Shown here: positions 7,939 through 13,617 of the stretch, one piece after another | How the letters are laid out: each line of letters begins with the position of its first letter | Numbering within the stretch: position 1 is the first letter of the stretch | Assembly (NCBI GenBank): GCA_017959005.1 | Contig: JAGDBO010000008.1 | Location: 1 to 64,000, forward strand | Direction of reading: 5' to 3' | Length of the DNA: 64,000 nucleotides | Origin: Bacteroidales bacterium | GTDB taxonomy: Bacteria; Bacteroidota; Bacteroidia; Bacteroidales; UBA932 | Notes under the pieces: generated by a model | Told to the model about the DNA's origin: nothing | What the model saw: only the letters and a program-made list of their open reading frames with translations | Databases searched by the model: none | Made by a program: the position numbers and the translations under genes

Positions 7939-8916
7939 ATGTTTAAGATAGGTAACATTGAGTTCCGGGACAAGGCCCTCTTTCTGGCACCTATGGAGGA
8001 TGTAACAGATGCCTCCTTCAGGTACATCTGCAAGGAGTACGGGGCGGATATGATGTATACGGAGTTCGTCTCATCTGACGGGCTGGTGCACAACGCCCAG
8101 AAATCCTTCAAGAAGATGGAGGTCTTTGACTACGAGAGACCCATCGGGATACAGATATACGGCCACATTCCGGAGGCAATGGTAGAGGCGGCAAAGTTTG
8201 CCCAGGAGCAGCATCCGAACCTTATAGATATAAACTTTGGCTGCCCGGTCAATAAGATTGCAAAGAGAGGTGCCGGATCTGGTATGATGCGCTTCCCGGA
8301 TTTGATGGTGGAGATTACGGAGAAGGTTGTCAAGGCGGTAAATCTGCCCGTTACGGTAAAGACTCGCCTTGGGTGGGATGAGAACTCCTTAATAATAGTG
8401 GAGCTTGCAGAGAGGCTGCAGGATGCGGGTATACAGGCGCTTACCATACACGGCCGCACCCGCTGCCAGATGTATAAGGGTGAGGCGGACTGGACTCTGA
8501 TTGGCAAGGTAAAGGAGAATCCGAGGATGAAGATTCCAATCATAGGAAATGGAGACGTGGTGGATGAGAAGAGCGCCCGGGAGAAGTTTGAACGTTACGG
8601 CGTGGATGCAATTATGATTGGCAGAGCCACTTACGGCCACCCGTGGATTTTCCGTGATATCCGTCACTATCTGGATACGGGAGAGATACTGCCCCCTATG
8701 AGCGTGGCTGAGAGGGTGGAACTGGCTAAAAGACACTTCCTAAAATCTATAGAGGTAAAGGGTGAAAAGCGCGGGGTCTTTGAGATGAGACGCCATCTTA
8801 GCTGTTACTTTAAGTCACTTTTCAACTTTAAAGAGACCAGAATGAAACTTGTTACGGAGACGGACCCGCAGAAGGTGCTGGAACTCTTAGACTACGTCAA
8901 AGCCACCTGGGGTTAG
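7939..8916 (+). CDS. dusB: tRNA-dihydrouridine synthase
   Basis: 325 residues from ATG 7939 (MFKIGNIEF). An in-frame TTG at 7930 lies inside the promoter element and cannot be the start. The enzyme reduces uridine in tRNA D-loops using FMN and NADPH. Family signatures are LAPMEDVTDASFR (FMN site), the substrate loop INFGCPVNKIAKRGAGSGM with its catalytic Cys, KTRLGWDEN, LTIHGRTR and the FMN phosphate-binding GNGDV/GRATYG. It faces an aromatic biosynthesis gene, and the two stop codons overlap (TTAG). Confidence 0.92.
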   Translation: MFKIGNIEFRDKALFLAPMEDVTDASFRYICKEYGADMMYTEFVSSDGLVHNAQKSFKKMEVFDYERPIGIQIYGHIPEAMVEAAKFAQEQHPNLIDINFGCPVNKIAKRGAGSGMMRFPDLMVEITEKVVKAVNLPVTVKTRLGWDENSLIIVELAERLQDAGIQALTIHGRTRCQMYKGEADWTLIGKVKENPRMKIPIIGNGDVVDEKSAREKFERYGVDAIMIGRATYGHPWIFRDIRHYLDTGEILPPMSVAERVELAKRHFLKSIEVKGEKRGVFEMRRHLSCYFKSLFNFKETRMKLVTETDPQKVLELLDYVKATWG

Positions 8917-9974
8917 GGAAGTTGCAAACGGACAGATTCCTGGTGGATGGCCTCAATGATTGAGAGGACAAACTCCTCATCCAAATCCATCTCTTTTGCC
9001 TTTTTCAGAGCGGTCTGAATAATCTCGTTGTAACGGTCGTTTTGGAAAACCGGAATATTGTTCTGCTTTTTATACGCCCCTATCTCTCTGGAAATCTGCA
9101 TTCTGCGGGAGAGCACCTTTAAAAGTTCATCATCCAGTTCATCTATCTCGCTGCGGTATGCCCCTATTCCCTCAATCTTTTGAGAGTTCTCTCTTATTAT
9201 GAGATTTTGAAGGATAAGTTTCAACTCCCCTGGCGTAATCTGCTGAGCCTTATCTGAAAGCGCCTCTTCCGGATTTATATGGGTCTCAATCATTAAGCCG
9301 TCATACATCAAATCCATAGCCTGCTGGCAGATTGGAGCAATCAGGGTGCGACTGCCTCCCATGTGGCTCGGGTCACAGAGCAGAGTTATGGATGGATATC
9401 TTCTCTTCATCTCCATTGGGATGTTCCAGAGCGGAGCGTTGCGGTAAGATCTGTGCTCGTATGTGCTGAAACCCCTGTGAATCAAACCTATTGCAGCAAC
9501 TCCCGCATTGGCAAGACGCTCTACTGCGCCGCTCCAGAGATCTATATCCGAACTGAGAGGATTCTTAACCAGGATTGGAACTGAGGTTCCCTTAAGGGCA
9601 TCCGCGATGGCCTGTACTGCGAATGGATCTGTAGTTGTTCTAGCCCCTATCCAGAGAAGATCCGGATTGATTTTCATCACCTGCTCTATGTGAGAGGGCG
9701 TTGCAACTTCTGTGATGATTTGCATTCCGGTTTGCTCCCTCACCTCCTTGAGCCACTCCATGCCGGCCGCTCCAACACCCTCAAAACCACCCGGTTTAGT
9801 TCTTGGCTTCCAGAGGCCGGCACGGAAGATTTTTACACCCGCCTCTGCAACGGAAACAGCGGTAGAGAGCAGTTGCTGCCTGCTCTCCGCACTGCAAGGT
9901 CCTGCAATAACCAACGGCCTTGACCCGCCTGATGAAATCTCCGTTTTTTTGATATCTGACATCTTCTCCTTCAT
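8913..9974 (-). CDS. Bifunctional DAHP synthase / chorismate mutase type II
   Basis: 353 residues from ATG 9974; an ATG at 9962 (MSDIKK) is preceded by AAGGAG only three bases away and is an alternative. A TTG further out at 10013 is unlikely. The N-terminal KdsA-like DAHP synthase domain joins PEP and erythrose 4-phosphate. It shows GPCSAES, GLWKPRTKPGGFEG, LVKNPLSSD, HRGFSTYE and LLCDPSHMGG. An AroQ-type chorismate mutase domain of about 90 residues follows (RSEIDELDDELLKVLSRRMQ), converting chorismate to prephenate. The two activities mark the entry and the Phe/Tyr branch of the pathway. The gene has its own promoter and a leader with a Tyr-rich peptide and terminator, so it is probably under attenuation control. 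Confidence 0.93.
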   Translation of the reverse strand: MKEKMSDIKKTEISSGGSRPLVIAGPCSAESRQQLLSTAVSVAEAGVKIFRAGLWKPRTKPGGFEGVGAAGMEWLKEVREQTGMQIITEVATPSHIEQVMKINPDLLWIGARTTTDPFAVQAIADALKGTSVPILVKNPLSSDIDLWSGAVERLANAGVAAIGLIHRGFSTYEHRSYRNAPLWNIPMEMKRRYPSITLLCDPSHMGGSRTLIAPICQQAMDLMYDGLMIETHINPEEALSDKAQQITPGELKLILQNLIIRENSQKIEGIGAYRSEIDELDDELLKVLSRRMQISREIGAYKKQNNIPVFQNDRYNEIIQTALKKAKEMDLDEEFVLSIIEAIHQESVRLQLP

Positions 9975-10017
9975 TCCTGGTACAAATCTCCGAAAAATTA
10001 AGCACACTTTCAAGGAG

Positions 10018-10129
10018 AAAAAAAAAGTCCCGCTTCTTTTGAAAGCAGGAAACCGACAGACATTAACAAAAACTTTTACACTTTAACCAAATAGCCGCGA
10101 TAACCTGCTCTCAGCATCTCTGCCAAGAG
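10018..10129 (-). promoter_or_regulatory. Tyr attenuator: pause hairpin, antiterminator and terminator
   Basis: Four segments on the minus strand. Segment 1 CTCTTGGC (10129-10122) pairs with GCTGAGAG (10115-10108), with two G-U pairs. Segment 2 GAGAGCAGG (10112-10104) pairs with segment 3 CCTGCTTTC (10049-10041) over nine bases with one G-U. Segment 3 TCCTGCTT (10050-10043) pairs with segment 4 AAGCGGGA (10035-10028) over eight bases with one G-U, followed by C and nine T (10026-10018). The 1:2, 2:3 and 3:4 pairings exclude one another in trp-type order. Segment 1 abuts two Tyr codons (10134-10129), and the leader-peptide stop sits on segment 2. Pairings were worked out by hand. Confidence 0.8.
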
Positions 10130-10170
10130 TAATAGTTATTGTGGCTGTAATGTCTATTCAACTTTTTCAT
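10111..10170 (-). CDS. Tyr-rich leader peptide of the DAHP synthase gene
   Basis: A 19-codon frame, MKKLNRHYSHNNYYSWQRC, starts at ATG 10170 about 45 bases after the predicted transcription start and stops with TGA at 10113-10111. It has three Tyr codons, two of them adjacent (10134-10129), and one Trp; no Phe. The adjacent Tyr codons end exactly where the first arm of the pause hairpin begins. A ribosome stalled there would free the antiterminator strand, while one reaching the stop would cover it. No Shine-Dalgarno sequence is present, as is normal for this lineage. The peptide itself is expected to have no function other than sensing. Confidence 0.75.
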   Translation of the reverse strand: MKKLNRHYSHNNYYSWQRC

Positions 10171-10221
10171 TTGTCAGCGGAAAGGACTCCGACTCGTATC
10201 CTCCGGTTCTCTTTCCGGGTG

Positions 10222-10253
10222 CAAAAGTATATTCGCCTATTAGATTTTGCAAA
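10222..10253 (-). promoter_or_regulatory. Promoter of the DAHP synthase/chorismate mutase gene
   Basis: Minus-strand TTTG (10253-10250), a 20-base spacer, then TACTTTTG (10229-10222). This is a full match to the Bacteroidetes consensus. Transcription would start near 10215, giving a leader of about 240 nt that contains the leader peptide and attenuator. Confidence 0.8.
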
Positions 10254-10324
10254 TTGTTACTAAAAAATGTTACTTAAAAAGTAAAACCTTAACAAAAACA
10301 ACACAATCTAAGGGTTATTTTTCT

Positions 10325-10332
10325 TATATTTG
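10325..10332 (+). promoter_or_regulatory. Promoter -7 element of the aroB operon
   Basis: TATATTTG fits TAnnTTTG and lies 26 bases before the aroB ATG. It shows that the GTG at 10332 is not the start. No -33 TTTG is evident. Confidence 0.6.
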
Positions 10333-10358
10333 TGGAGATTATTACAAATAGCACTAAA

Positions 10359-11384
10359 ATGAAATTCTACAACCACAAGAATATCAATTATTTAGCAAAG
10401 TACATTCCTAAAAGTAGCGGTGTTTTTGTAATAATTGATAAGAATGTAACAGAATACTTTCCAAAAAATAGAATTTTTCACTTTATACCTATAGATGCCA
10501 ACGAACGTAACAAGAGTTTGGAGTATGTATATGGCATTTACGAGGCTTTGATGGGGTTTGGAGCGGACAGAGATTGCTTTATTATAGGAGTGGGAGGGGG
10601 CATTACTACAGATTTGGCGGGCTTTGTGGCCTCTACATATAAGCGTGGAGTAAGGTTCGGTTTTGTACCTACCACCCTTTTGGCTCAGGTAGACGCCGCA
10701 ATTGGAGGAAAGAACGGGGTGAACTTCTCCGGTTATAAAAATATGATAGGAACCATCAACCAGCCGGAGTGGATCTATCTTACACCCGCCTTTCTGTGGA
10801 GTCTGGATGAGCGTGTTTTCAGAGAGGGGGTTGCTGAGATGGTTAAAACCTTTATGATTTTTGACAAGGAGAGTTACAACTCTGCCGTTGCCCTCGCTTC
10901 CGTATTTAAGAACAAGAATGCGGCTGCCTGGCAGGAGAAAGAACTAAGAAGGCTGATTGTTCTCTGCGGAGAGATGAAGATGATGCTTGTTGTTGAAGAT
11001 GAGAAAGATAGAGGCAACAGAAGGCTCCTTAACCTGGGACACACCTTTGCTCACGCCATGGAGAAATGTGCTGCAGATAAGGGAGCAGATTGGCTGCACG
11101 GAGAGGCTGTAAGTGTGGGGATGATGATAGCCGCAAAGGTGGCGGAAAGGCTCTCCCTCTGCTCTGAAAAATTTGTAAACACTCTCCGAGATGATCTTCT
11201 TATGGCCTCACTTCCCGTCAGTTGTCCATTTACCCCAACTCAACTATTCTCTGCAATTAAGGCGGATAAGAAGAGAAGCGGAGAGAGCATTTGTCTGATT
11301 CTTCCAAAAACCATCGGGAGAGTTATCAAGAAAAATATAGAGCTGAAAGAGTTGCAAAAAGTGCTGAAAGAGATAAACTTATAG
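10359..11384 (+). CDS. aroB: 3-Dehydroquinate synthase
   Basis: 341 residues from ATG 10359 (MKFYNHKN). The enzyme converts DAHP to 3-dehydroquinate using NAD and a divalent metal. Signatures are GVGGGITTDLAGFVASTYKRGV (NAD site), PTTLLAQVDAAIGGKNGVN, EMVKTFMI, and the metal ligands in NLGHTFAHAMEK and LHGEAVSVGM. First gene of an aroB-aroDA-aroC operon, 13 bases before the next start. It runs divergently from the attenuated DAHP synthase gene, so the two transcription units share a roughly 100-base promoter region. Confidence 0.95.
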   Translation: MKFYNHKNINYLAKYIPKSSGVFVIIDKNVTEYFPKNRIFHFIPIDANERNKSLEYVYGIYEALMGFGADRDCFIIGVGGGITTDLAGFVASTYKRGVRFGFVPTTLLAQVDAAIGGKNGVNFSGYKNMIGTINQPEWIYLTPAFLWSLDERVFREGVAEMVKTFMIFDKESYNSAVALASVFKNKNAAAWQEKELRRLIVLCGEMKMMLVVEDEKDRGNRRLLNLGHTFAHAMEKCAADKGADWLHGEAVSVGMMIAAKVAERLSLCSEKFVNTLRDDLLMASLPVSCPFTPTQLFSAIKADKKRSGESICLILPKTIGRVIKKNIELKELQKVLKEINL

Positions 11385-11397
11385 AGAGAGTTGCTAT

Positions 11398-13617
11398 ATG
11401 GAGGAGAGTATAAAAAGGAAAATATGCGCTTGCATATCGGAGAAGAATTTTTCCGATTGTATGGCTCTTGCCTCCAAATATAGCTTTGCGGAGATAAGGG
11501 GAGACATCTGTCTTCTGACTCTCAAGGATATAGAGACTCTCATCTCTCAGAATCTTAATCTGATTTTCACATACAGGTTTGATGAATACGGCAGGGATAT
11601 TGCTCTCAATCAGATGGTTGCAGCCATCAATAAAGGAGTGGCGTATGTAGATGTGGATGTCAGCGCAGACAAAGAGTTCATTGAGAGAATAAGAGAGGAG
11701 ATTGATAAGAAACCTCAGGCAGTACGCTGCAAACTTATACTTTCATATCACAACTTTTCCGAGACCCCTTCACTGGAAAAAATGAAAGAGGCGGTGGCGG
11801 AGTGTGTTAAGAAAGGGGCTGATATTGTGAAGATTGCCGTTACAGCTAACAACATCTCTGAGGCCTCCCGTGTACTCTCGCTCTACCATTGTACAGATTT
11901 GGGAGTGGACAGAGAGCATCTTATTGCTTTCTCGATGGGTGAAATTGGACGCTTTACCAGAATTGCAATAATCGGCATGGGCGCTCCCTTCACCTACTGC
12001 AGTGTGGGCAGCCCTACCGGTGCCGGGCAATACACTGTTACTGAGATGTATAAAGAGTTACTTGGAGTTGCAGGAAGCGGCGCCTTTTCTCAGGTGGAGG
12101 ATGCCTCAAAGAGTGATCTCTTCTCACGTTTCTGCCAGAAGAGTCTTCCTACAGCTCGCAAGAAAAAGGGAAAGAGCATCTCCATTCCTTGCTCTAAGAG
12201 CATAGCACAGAGGGCAATAGTGGCAGCGGCCATTGCAAGCGGTCAGACTATCCTGAGAAATTTTGAGCCTTGCGGAGATATAAAATCTGCAGTGACGTTT
12301 GCCCGTAAATGCGGCTGTGTCATAAAGATAAGCAGAGACGGAAAGAGCAGCAAGGGAGAGAAGATGTTGATAATAAGAAGTGCCGGCATCTCAAAATGGA
12401 AATATTTTCAGATTGCGGATGTTGGGGAATCCGGACTTCTGACACGCCTGCTTATGCCCATAATGGCTTATGTATCAAGCATTAGAAATAAGACAGCCAT
12501 TACCTCAAAGATTACCATTGTGGGAGAGGAGACTCTGCTTAAGAGAGATATCTCCTCCGCAGTTGCTGCGGTAAAAAAATCCGGAGCAGTCTGCTCAGCC
12601 ACAAAGAATCCTAGGATGGAGGGGGAGTTTCTGCCAATTACAATAAGCGGCGGTATTACGGAGAAAAACTTCACAATCTCCGGCAACGAGAGTTCTCAAA
12701 CGGTATCCGGATTCTTAATGGTTCTCCCTCTGCTTAAGCAAGATACAACTATGGTGGTGGAGAATCCTGTGAGCACTCCGTTCATAGATCTTACCATTGA
12801 CGTTCTCCGCAGTTTCGGAATTAAGATTGGCATAACCAAAAAGGAGAACAAGTATATCTTCAACATTGCAGGCAATCAGAGTTACCATCCGGTAGATTTC
12901 TTTATGGATTCTGATTGGAGCAGTGCCTCAAATTTTGTGGCGGCGGGTGCCATTGCAACCTTTGCACAGAAGAGTTTTGAGCAGGATGAAACCCTCACAA
13001 TCAACAACATGGAGATAGAGTCAGACCAGGCGGACGAGAAGATTCTCTCCGTTGTGGAGTCTTGCGGTGCGGAAGTAGATTTTGAAAAGACGAGCAATGC
13101 AGATTTTGCTGAGGTTGCAGAGAACAGATTCCACAGCAGAAGAGATTTCTCAGATAAACTCAACAACGTTACTGTAAGAGCCAACACCCTTAAACCGTTC
13201 TGCGTGGATGTTACGAACTCTCCGGACCTCTTCCCTATACTTGCCACACTTGCAGTCTATTGCAACGGCGAAAGCAGAATAAACGGAGTAAGCAGGCTTA
13301 TGAAAAAGGAGAGCAACAGAGCGGAGGCAATTATTCTGGAATTCTCCAGAATGGGATACTGCATTGAGATTGAGGATGATGTGATGATAATAAAGGGTAT
13401 GGGAGGTAAGACTCTGCTGGAAAAAGAGGGAGGAGAGAACCTTCCAACCATCTATTGCTCAGCGCATAACGACCACAGAATTGCAATGGCCGTTGTAATC
13501 TGCGGAATGTTCCGTTCTCTCTTCAACCATTCGCAGAGCAAGATTATGATAGACAATCTGAAATGTATAGATAAATCTTTCCCTACCTTTATGGAGAGAC
13601 TGCAAATAACGGAATAG
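11398..13617 (+). CDS. Fused 3-dehydroquinate dehydratase (type I) / EPSP synthase
   Basis: 739 residues holding two shikimate-pathway enzymes that are usually separate. Residues 1 to about 230 are a type I dehydroquinate dehydratase: AEIRGD substrate loop, general-base His118 in SYHNF, Schiff-base Lys145 in VKIAVTA, and the active-site loop SVGSPTGAGQYT. Residues from about 258 to the end are 5-enolpyruvylshikimate-3-phosphate synthase: SKS with Lys267, GESGLLTR, SSQTVSGFL, SDWSSASNF and NDHRIAMA. All expected key residues are visible in both halves. Continuous reading frame with no sign of a frameshift. The gene ends one base before aroC, so the three genes form one operon supplying most of the pathway. 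Shikimate dehydrogenase and kinase are not in the window. Confidence 0.92.
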   Translation: MEESIKRKICACISEKNFSDCMALASKYSFAEIRGDICLLTLKDIETLISQNLNLIFTYRFDEYGRDIALNQMVAAINKGVAYVDVDVSADKEFIERIREEIDKKPQAVRCKLILSYHNFSETPSLEKMKEAVAECVKKGADIVKIAVTANNISEASRVLSLYHCTDLGVDREHLIAFSMGEIGRFTRIAIIGMGAPFTYCSVGSPTGAGQYTVTEMYKELLGVAGSGAFSQVEDASKSDLFSRFCQKSLPTARKKKGKSISIPCSKSIAQRAIVAAAIASGQTILRNFEPCGDIKSAVTFARKCGCVIKISRDGKSSKGEKMLIIRSAGISKWKYFQIADVGESGLLTRLLMPIMAYVSSIRNKTAITSKITIVGEETLLKRDISSAVAAVKKSGAVCSATKNPRMEGEFLPITISGGITEKNFTISGNESSQTVSGFLMVLPLLKQDTTMVVENPVSTPFIDLTIDVLRSFGIKIGITKKENKYIFNIAGNQSYHPVDFFMDSDWSSASNFVAAGAIATFAQKSFEQDETLTINNMEIESDQADEKILSVVESCGAEVDFEKTSNADFAEVAENRFHSRRDFSDKLNNVTVRANTLKPFCVDVTNSPDLFPILATLAVYCNGESRINGVSRLMKKESNRAEAIILEFSRMGYCIEIEDDVMIIKGMGGKTLLEKEGGENLPTIYCSAHNDHRIAMAVVICGMFRSLFNHSQSKIMIDNLKCIDKSFPTFMERLQITE

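Follow-up and report, generated by a model that had tools for sequence, protein, structure and literature searches.

A likely leader-peptide attenuator with conserved tyrosine codons ahead of aroF, the gene for DAHP synthase/chorismate mutase, in a genus of Bacteroidales

We propose that aroF, which encodes a DAHP synthase fused to a chorismate mutase, is likely controlled by a ribosome-mediated transcription attenuator in a Bacteroidales bacterium. The element was studied in a stretch of 64,000 nucleotides (hereafter the window) from a 1.80 Mb draft genome that is 86% complete, and in 39 genomes of the genus, that of the window included. Taking all observations together, the best explanation appears to be an attenuator on aroF that responds to ribosomes stalled at Tyr codons and that descends from the attenuator of a pheA operon, and we hold this explanation with considerable confidence. 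Tyr is probably the principal signal, with Trp as a possible second one.

Anatomy of the aroF leader

The gene controlled, aroF, lies at positions 8913 to 9974 on the minus strand (PF00793 and PF01817; start codon uncertain). Its product matches DAHP_synth_1 and CM_2, with NCBIfam matches below the curated cut-offs. Divergent from it, aroB (10332 to 11384, plus strand; 300 bits for TIGR01357 against a cut-off of 305) served as the syntenic anchor in tblastn comparisons. It belongs to a cluster of aroB, an aroD-aroA fusion and aroC, from which the transcription of aroF points away. The fusion, found at 11398-13617 on the plus strand, joins 3-dehydroquinate dehydratase to EPSP synthase.

Direct reading of the minus strand confirmed that all parts claimed by the sequence-only reading are present in front of the DAHP synthase/chorismate mutase gene. 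The promoter is of the Bacteroidetes type, with a -33 element TTTG (10250 to 10253) and a -7 element TACTTTTG (P1; 10222 to 10229) of the form TAnnTTTG, in agreement with the TTTG/TAnnTTTG consensus as quoted in PMC7366714. The leader frame, MKKLNRHYSHNNYYSWQRC, spans 10111 to 10170 on the minus strand and comprises 19 codons, ending with the stop codon TGA at 10113-10111. It contains, as had been claimed, three Tyr codons, two of them adjacent (codons 8, 13 and 14), and one Trp codon (codon 16). Ahead of the leader ATG, a 5' hairpin is predicted at 10178 to 10217 (minus strand), the fold from a slightly different start being different. This stretch occurs only in the clade of the window (G000, G016 and G035) and is absent from the other nine leaders described below. 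In those nine, the ATG lies 7-8 nt downstream of the -7 box, and the message is therefore nearly leaderless.

Folding with ViennaRNA recovered the mutually exclusive pairings 1:2, 2:3 and 3:4 that had been proposed, all on the minus strand. Segment 1 (10121 to 10145), which overlaps Tyr13, Tyr14 and Trp16, is the 5' arm of a hairpin with segment 2 (10094 to 10116), formed by 10145-10134 with 10105-10094 plus 10129-10121 with 10116-10108; it may be extended by an outer helix of 10161-10146 with 10068-10053. Segment 3 (10040 to 10050) can pair with either of two partners. With segment 2 it forms an antiterminator of 10 bp (10113-10104 with 10049-10040), and with segment 4 (10028 to 10036) it forms the terminator stem (10050-10042 with 10036-10028). 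Nine T at 10026-10018 follow this stem, which makes it the intrinsic terminator with nine U that had been described. The leader stop codon lies inside segment 2, as claimed, and within the antiterminator strand. The start of segment 1 had been placed at the adjacent Tyr codons, which holds roughly; the last base of Tyr14 opens the inner arm, and the outer arm begins 16 nt before it.

The folding energy of the whole window leader has a z-score of -2.5 (2 of 200 shuffles as stable), and that of its 1:2 region a z-score of -4.8 (0 of 300). Among 12 homologous leaders, the 1:2 region ranges from -3.6 to -7.7 in 11 and is weak in that of G027 (z -1.7, 18 of 300 shuffles).

We infer the following course of events in vivo. 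RNA polymerase would start at P1 and a ribosome would translate the 19-codon leader. With charged Tyr-tRNA at hand, the ribosome would reach the stop codon and cover segment 2, segments 3 and 4 would pair, and transcription would end at the U tract. When charged Tyr-tRNA is scarce, a ribosome stalled at Tyr13 or Tyr14 would cover segment 1, segments 2 and 3 would pair, and the polymerase would enter aroF. A stall at Trp16 would act in a similar way but probably less strongly. If no ribosome is present, the 1:2 hairpin would form and be followed by the terminator.

Conservation of the leader and simulated ribosome stalls

A homologous leader precedes aroF in 12 of the 39 genus genomes (G000, G003, G009, G012, G015, G016, G022, G023, G027, G029, G030 and G035), of which 11 leaders are distinct because those of G003 and G022 are identical. 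The leader is deleted in two genomes on different branches, G014 and G018, and aroF stands without a leader in six (G005, G020, G028, G031, G036 and G032, the last with only 191 nt upstream of aroF scanned). A full aroF was not found in three of the 39 (G001, G004 and G010). The same survey contains 16 genomes with pheA, in which a Phe/Tyr leader precedes pheA. This survey of the 39 genomes is also the outcome of a check that the sequence-only reading had set itself, namely whether orthologous leaders keep a Tyr frame and the pairings.

All 12 leaders share a length of 19 codons and the sequence Tyr14-Ser15-Trp16. Each contains 2-4 Tyr, 1-2 Trp (the leader of G027 having a second Trp codon) and at most one Phe. 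Phe occurs in seven of them as a single codon, codon 2, outside the stall-sensitive stretch defined below. An exact TAnnTTTG is found at the P1 position in all 14 genomes that carry or have deleted the leader. The same 14 share a box of the form GGTTAwAGTGT, which in the window reads GGTTAAAGTGT and lies between segments 2 and 3 (10078 to 10088, minus strand). In G014 and G018 the promoter is joined directly to this box; both deletions end at the box or at most 3 nt from it.

A scan for a leader frame combined with a terminator was passed by 11 of the 12 aroF leaders; that of G016 has too few aromatic codons. The background of the scan was 7 passes among 800 Markov-resampled sequences and 2 among 40 opposite strands. 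None of the eight leaderless or leader-deleted aroF genes of the genus passed, nor did any of 20 aroF upstream regions from other genomes of the family, which were hand-picked from a list made for 199 genomes. A covariance model (R1), built from the eight distinct leaders of the second set (the nine outside the clade of the window), matched the window leader (36.1 bits, E 4e-5) and nothing else in that genome. Within the genus, R1 matched 19 of 39 genomes at E up to 1, comprising the 12 leaders, the remnant in G014 and the pheA leader of G024, the rest being weak (best G013, E 0.0015). Inspection of the matches in G013 and G031 and of a second match in G027 revealed no leader there. Across the order, seven of 393 genomes matched at E 0.01, and the six besides that of the window look by eye like plain terminators.

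The 1:2 sequences differ widely between the clade of the window (three leaders) and the other set (nine), and both fold. Among the eight distinct leaders of the second set, 92.3% of the 1:2 and 3:4 cells hold standard pairs, compared with 46-53% when the partners are slid. Three of these pairs are changed on both sides, as many as occur in 26 of 500 shuffles, and pair types are no more numerous than in shuffles (296 of 500). For 2:3 the corresponding values are 97.7% of cells versus 55-62%; its core of eight pairs reaches 98.9% over 11 leaders versus 43-64%. No two-sided changes were found in 2:3, either in the set of eight or in the core over 11 leaders. Given 11 leaders, RNAalifold retrieved the terminator together with four pairs of 1:2, none with a two-sided change; it retrieves so few because the clades do not align in 1:2. 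The alignment of orthologous leaders that had been suggested as a check thus shows Tyr14 conserved in 12 of 12, but thin covariation (three two-sided pairs). Covariation proper is scant although the pairing is conserved, because segments 3 and 4 hardly vary.

By codon content, the leader is only modestly enriched (P ~0.03 for at least three Tyr among 18 codons, with Tyr assumed to make up 4%), and the case rests on conservation. This modest value would suit a plain terminator preceded by an untranslated chance ORF, as would the single other candidate for an aromatic leader with terminator that turned up when the two strands of the window were scanned, near tRNA genes. We regard such an arrangement as very improbable, since 12 genomes keep both P1 and the frame, 1:2 and 2:3 find no explanation in a terminator by itself, and comparable leaders stand at all 16 pheA genes of the genus. 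The other candidate itself consists of the short frame MHRFWWSEFEKICS with a terminator-like hairpin behind it (37886, minus strand) near two tRNA genes, and is probably due to chance.

Ribosome stalls were simulated by removing the RNA upstream of the front edge of the ribosome and folding the rest, which yields equilibrium folds under an assumed footprint; among footprints of +12, +15 and +18, the sensitive stretch shifts by one codon. In all 12 leaders, the terminator formed both without a ribosome and with one at the stop codon, whereas a ribosome stalled at Tyr14 led to the antiterminator. The sensitive stretch mostly covers codons 8-16 (10-16 in the window, 6-15 in G016, 7-17 plus 2-4 in G027). 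Tyr8 of the window lies outside it, and a stall there gave no antiterminator. Tyr and Trp account for 32 of 106 stall-permissive codons versus 16 of 134 others, where the others include stop codons and undecided positions and the leaders are related sequences. When the region between the Tyr14-stalled ribosome and segment 3 was randomized, the antiterminator formed 8 times in 100 trials with the window leader and 0-11 times in 100 across the 12 leaders.

Anatomy, conservation and simulated stalls together lend good support to the attenuator logic of the earlier reading. Tyr alone is not established as the signal, because Trp16 is as conserved as Tyr14 and 10 of 12 leaders also form the antiterminator when the simulated ribosome stalls at Trp16. 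The leader could read Tyr and Trp, or mainly Trp, and gauge aromatic amino acids generally. The conserved Trp16, the second Trp codon in G027 and the lack of Trp in the 16 pheA leaders all speak for this. On the other side, the Trp16 stall fails in G016 and G009 and is weaker in the window, with seven instead of eight antiterminator pairs in segment 3 and -19.4 kcal/mol for the exposed RNA, compared with -25.4 kcal/mol for the Tyr14 stall. Additionally, Tyr is the commoner codon, and neither a canonical trpB nor a PF00425 enzyme was found in the leader genomes (see next section). We consider a dual or Trp sensor a serious possibility that nevertheless falls short of being probable.

Genes not found and the leaders of pheA

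The 14 genomes with a leader or its remnant (the 12 leader genomes, G014 and G018) are drafts, 73-96% complete. PF00800 (pheA) and the PF00425 enzyme were not found in any of these 14, and TyrA was detected in them neither with PF02153 nor with a model from ten TyrA proteins of the genus. No canonical trpB exceeded the cut-off in the 14 genomes; five have a match of 147-153 bits, which we take to be the level of TrpB2-like proteins. The missing trpB and PF00425 enzyme are not peculiar to these genomes, as they are absent from 36 of 39 in the genus. The chorismate mutase domain of aroF is kept (it aligns through, with the CM_2 match in the window), and therefore prephenate seems to be made. With TyrA, a canonical trpB and a PF00425 enzyme all undetected by the searches, it is not evident that this pathway leads to Tyr or Trp. 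The idea that scarcity of the end product switches on the first pathway enzyme is accordingly incomplete: aroF feeds the pathway, but pheA, tyrA and the PF00425 enzyme were not found in these genomes. Either an unrecognized enzyme makes Tyr, or the leader control is a relic.

As a relic, the leader would have outlived its pheA operon and would now be eroding while a second promoter provides a way around it. The genes pheA and tyrA were not found in the 14 genomes, of which two have deleted the leader, and candidate promoter elements lie beyond the terminator. An exact TATATTTG, and with it a second exact TAnnTTTG, is located 43-44 nt past the terminator in all nine leaders that do not belong to the clade of the window, and 10 nt past it in G014; such elements may allow the attenuator to be bypassed. 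The window itself has a possible weak -7 element, GAGATTTG, with one mismatch to TAnnTTTG (9983 to 9990, minus strand). Against erosion, frame length, Tyr-Ser-Trp, pairings and U tract are kept in two clades with widely different 1:2 sequences, and the frame would be expected to go first. We therefore think it unlikely that the leader is a relic.

For a functional attenuator, the conserved Tyr codons would point to an unrecognized enzyme leading from prephenate to tyrosine, because the searches made turned up no chorismate user other than the fused chorismate mutase. A specific version, in which the Phe codons were replaced upon loss of pheA and the leader became a Tyr (or Tyr and Trp) sensor for DAHP synthase alongside such an enzyme, can be put forward only tentatively, and we judge it somewhat doubtful.

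Relatives with pheA carry leaders of a related kind. PF00800 (prephenate dehydratase) is present in 16 of the 39 genus genomes, and in all 16 a Phe/Tyr-rich leader stands upstream of pheA (by eye and by a leader-only count), each containing 2-6 Phe, 3-5 Tyr and no Trp. The scan with its clean terminator passes 12 of them; in G033, G002, G038 and G017 the leader is seen, and no terminator meets the scan rule. Across the order, 177 of 393 genomes gave a PF00800 match, and a Phe/Tyr leader with terminator precedes 42 of the 50 top-ranked pheA genes (26 of 30 and 16 of 20); these loci are the first 50 of a ranking and not a random sample, and one of the eight misses has only 218 nt upstream. Ten pheA loci with Phe/Tyr leaders had no Rfam match at the gathering score. 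Searching whole genomes, R1 found the pheA leader of G024 (E 1.2e-4; MLNRRFYGSYYFYFYFIR) and none of 14 others; that of G026 was matched only in a small search set, which included 2 of the 16 pheA loci. In G024, pheA is followed by a class I/II aminotransferase gene and, further down, by aroF and tyrA.

A divergent aroB adjoins all 12 Tyr-Ser-Trp leaders and the two sites of deletion, and it also adjoins 15 of the 16 pheA genes, the contig of the 16th being cut. The aroF element is thus the positional counterpart of the Phe/Tyr attenuator of pheA, both diverging from aroB. A branch of the aroF tree with support 96/99 (rooted by midpoint; G027, G030, G031, G032, G034 and G036 excluded) has on one side 10 of the 12 leader genomes, the two with a deletion and the leaderless G005 and G028, and on the other 15 pheA-bearing genomes, G020 and four outgroup rows. 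Supported by synteny and codon content, the element looks like a pheA-operon attenuator that was retuned after gene loss. The ancestor would have been the Phe/Tyr attenuator of an operon pheA-aminotransferase-aroF-tyrA diverging from aroB. Loss of the intervening genes would have placed aroF directly behind the attenuator; Phe beyond codon 2 would have gone and Tyr would have been kept, with a Trp codon, absent from pheA leaders, present in the aroF leaders. As to the direction of change, loss of the genes between attenuator and aroF, and of the Phe codons of the sensing region, is the parsimonious course. Measured against the Bacteroidales pheA attenuators, the aroF element shares the position beside a divergent aroB and has neither Phe codons past the start of the leader nor pheA downstream, and we therefore class it as a derived relative and not as a member.

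If this interpretation is right, the switch of an attenuator from one amino acid to another has accompanied the loss of biosynthetic genes, and the presumed older form survives in sister species, offering a natural experiment on the evolution of such switches. Leader codons would then hint at the product of a pathway whose last enzymes are unrecognizable. The findings also draw attention to the Phe/Tyr leaders before pheA genes in Bacteroidales.

Comparison with known systems

The pheA (pheL) and trp (trpL) attenuators of E. coli are leader-peptide systems that work by ribosome stalling. The aroF element shares with them the leader peptide and the stall logic, as outlined in PMC11802643, and differs in amino acid, gene and lineage. 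Within Bacteroidetes, the Bacteroid-trp RNA (RF01692, named in PMC2864571) likewise combines a leader peptide with a terminator before a biosynthesis gene, but it has Trp-Trp codons and precedes trpB; in the genus we found it before trpB in G037 and G026. Neither the window nor its genome has a match to RF01692 at the gathering score, and over the whole window the only Rfam matches at this score were two tRNAs. T-box models had no match at the gathering score, nor at E up to 10 within 9900-10400, where leu-phe_leader appeared at 16 bits (E 5.5) among chance-like matches only (E up to 10).

For Flavobacterium, PMC9723704 mentions structured 5' elements upstream of pheA and, independently of these, hints that leader peptides attenuate amino acid operons; for Bacteroides thetaiotaomicron, PMC7366714 mentions leader-like short ORFs in long 5' UTRs. 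A comparison from 2005 (PMC1262725) lists Tyr regulation under T-boxes and Phe regulation under attenuators. The sequence-only reading had found no place for a Tyr version on this gene in known descriptions. Precedent does exist, on a DAHP synthase gene with aroR (discussed below) and in Bacteroidales with the Phe/Tyr leaders of pheA, but the Tyr-Ser-Trp variant before aroF itself did not turn up in searches of open-licence papers for Tyr attenuators and aromatic leaders in Bacteroidetes. Given aroR, pheA, Bacteroid-trp and the other precedents, the kind of switch is known.

The pheA leaders of Bacteroidales resemble the aroF leader in their position beside a divergent aroB (in the genus) and in a comparable terminator, and the one in G024 is found by R1. 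Unlike the aroF leader, they are Phe-rich, lack Trp and precede pheA, with aroF further down the operon. On a DAHP synthase gene, the aroR leader of Corynebacterium glutamicum is a ribosome-mediated attenuator with aromatic codons, as the aroF leader probably is. It contains Phe-Tyr-Phe, and according to the review PMC11802643 (citing Neshat et al. 2014) transcription of the downstream aroF increases under Phe limitation, Tyr being irrelevant; the leader is also reported in the RNA-seq study PMC4046766. The two differ in that aroR is reported to respond to Phe and not to Tyr and belongs to another phylum.
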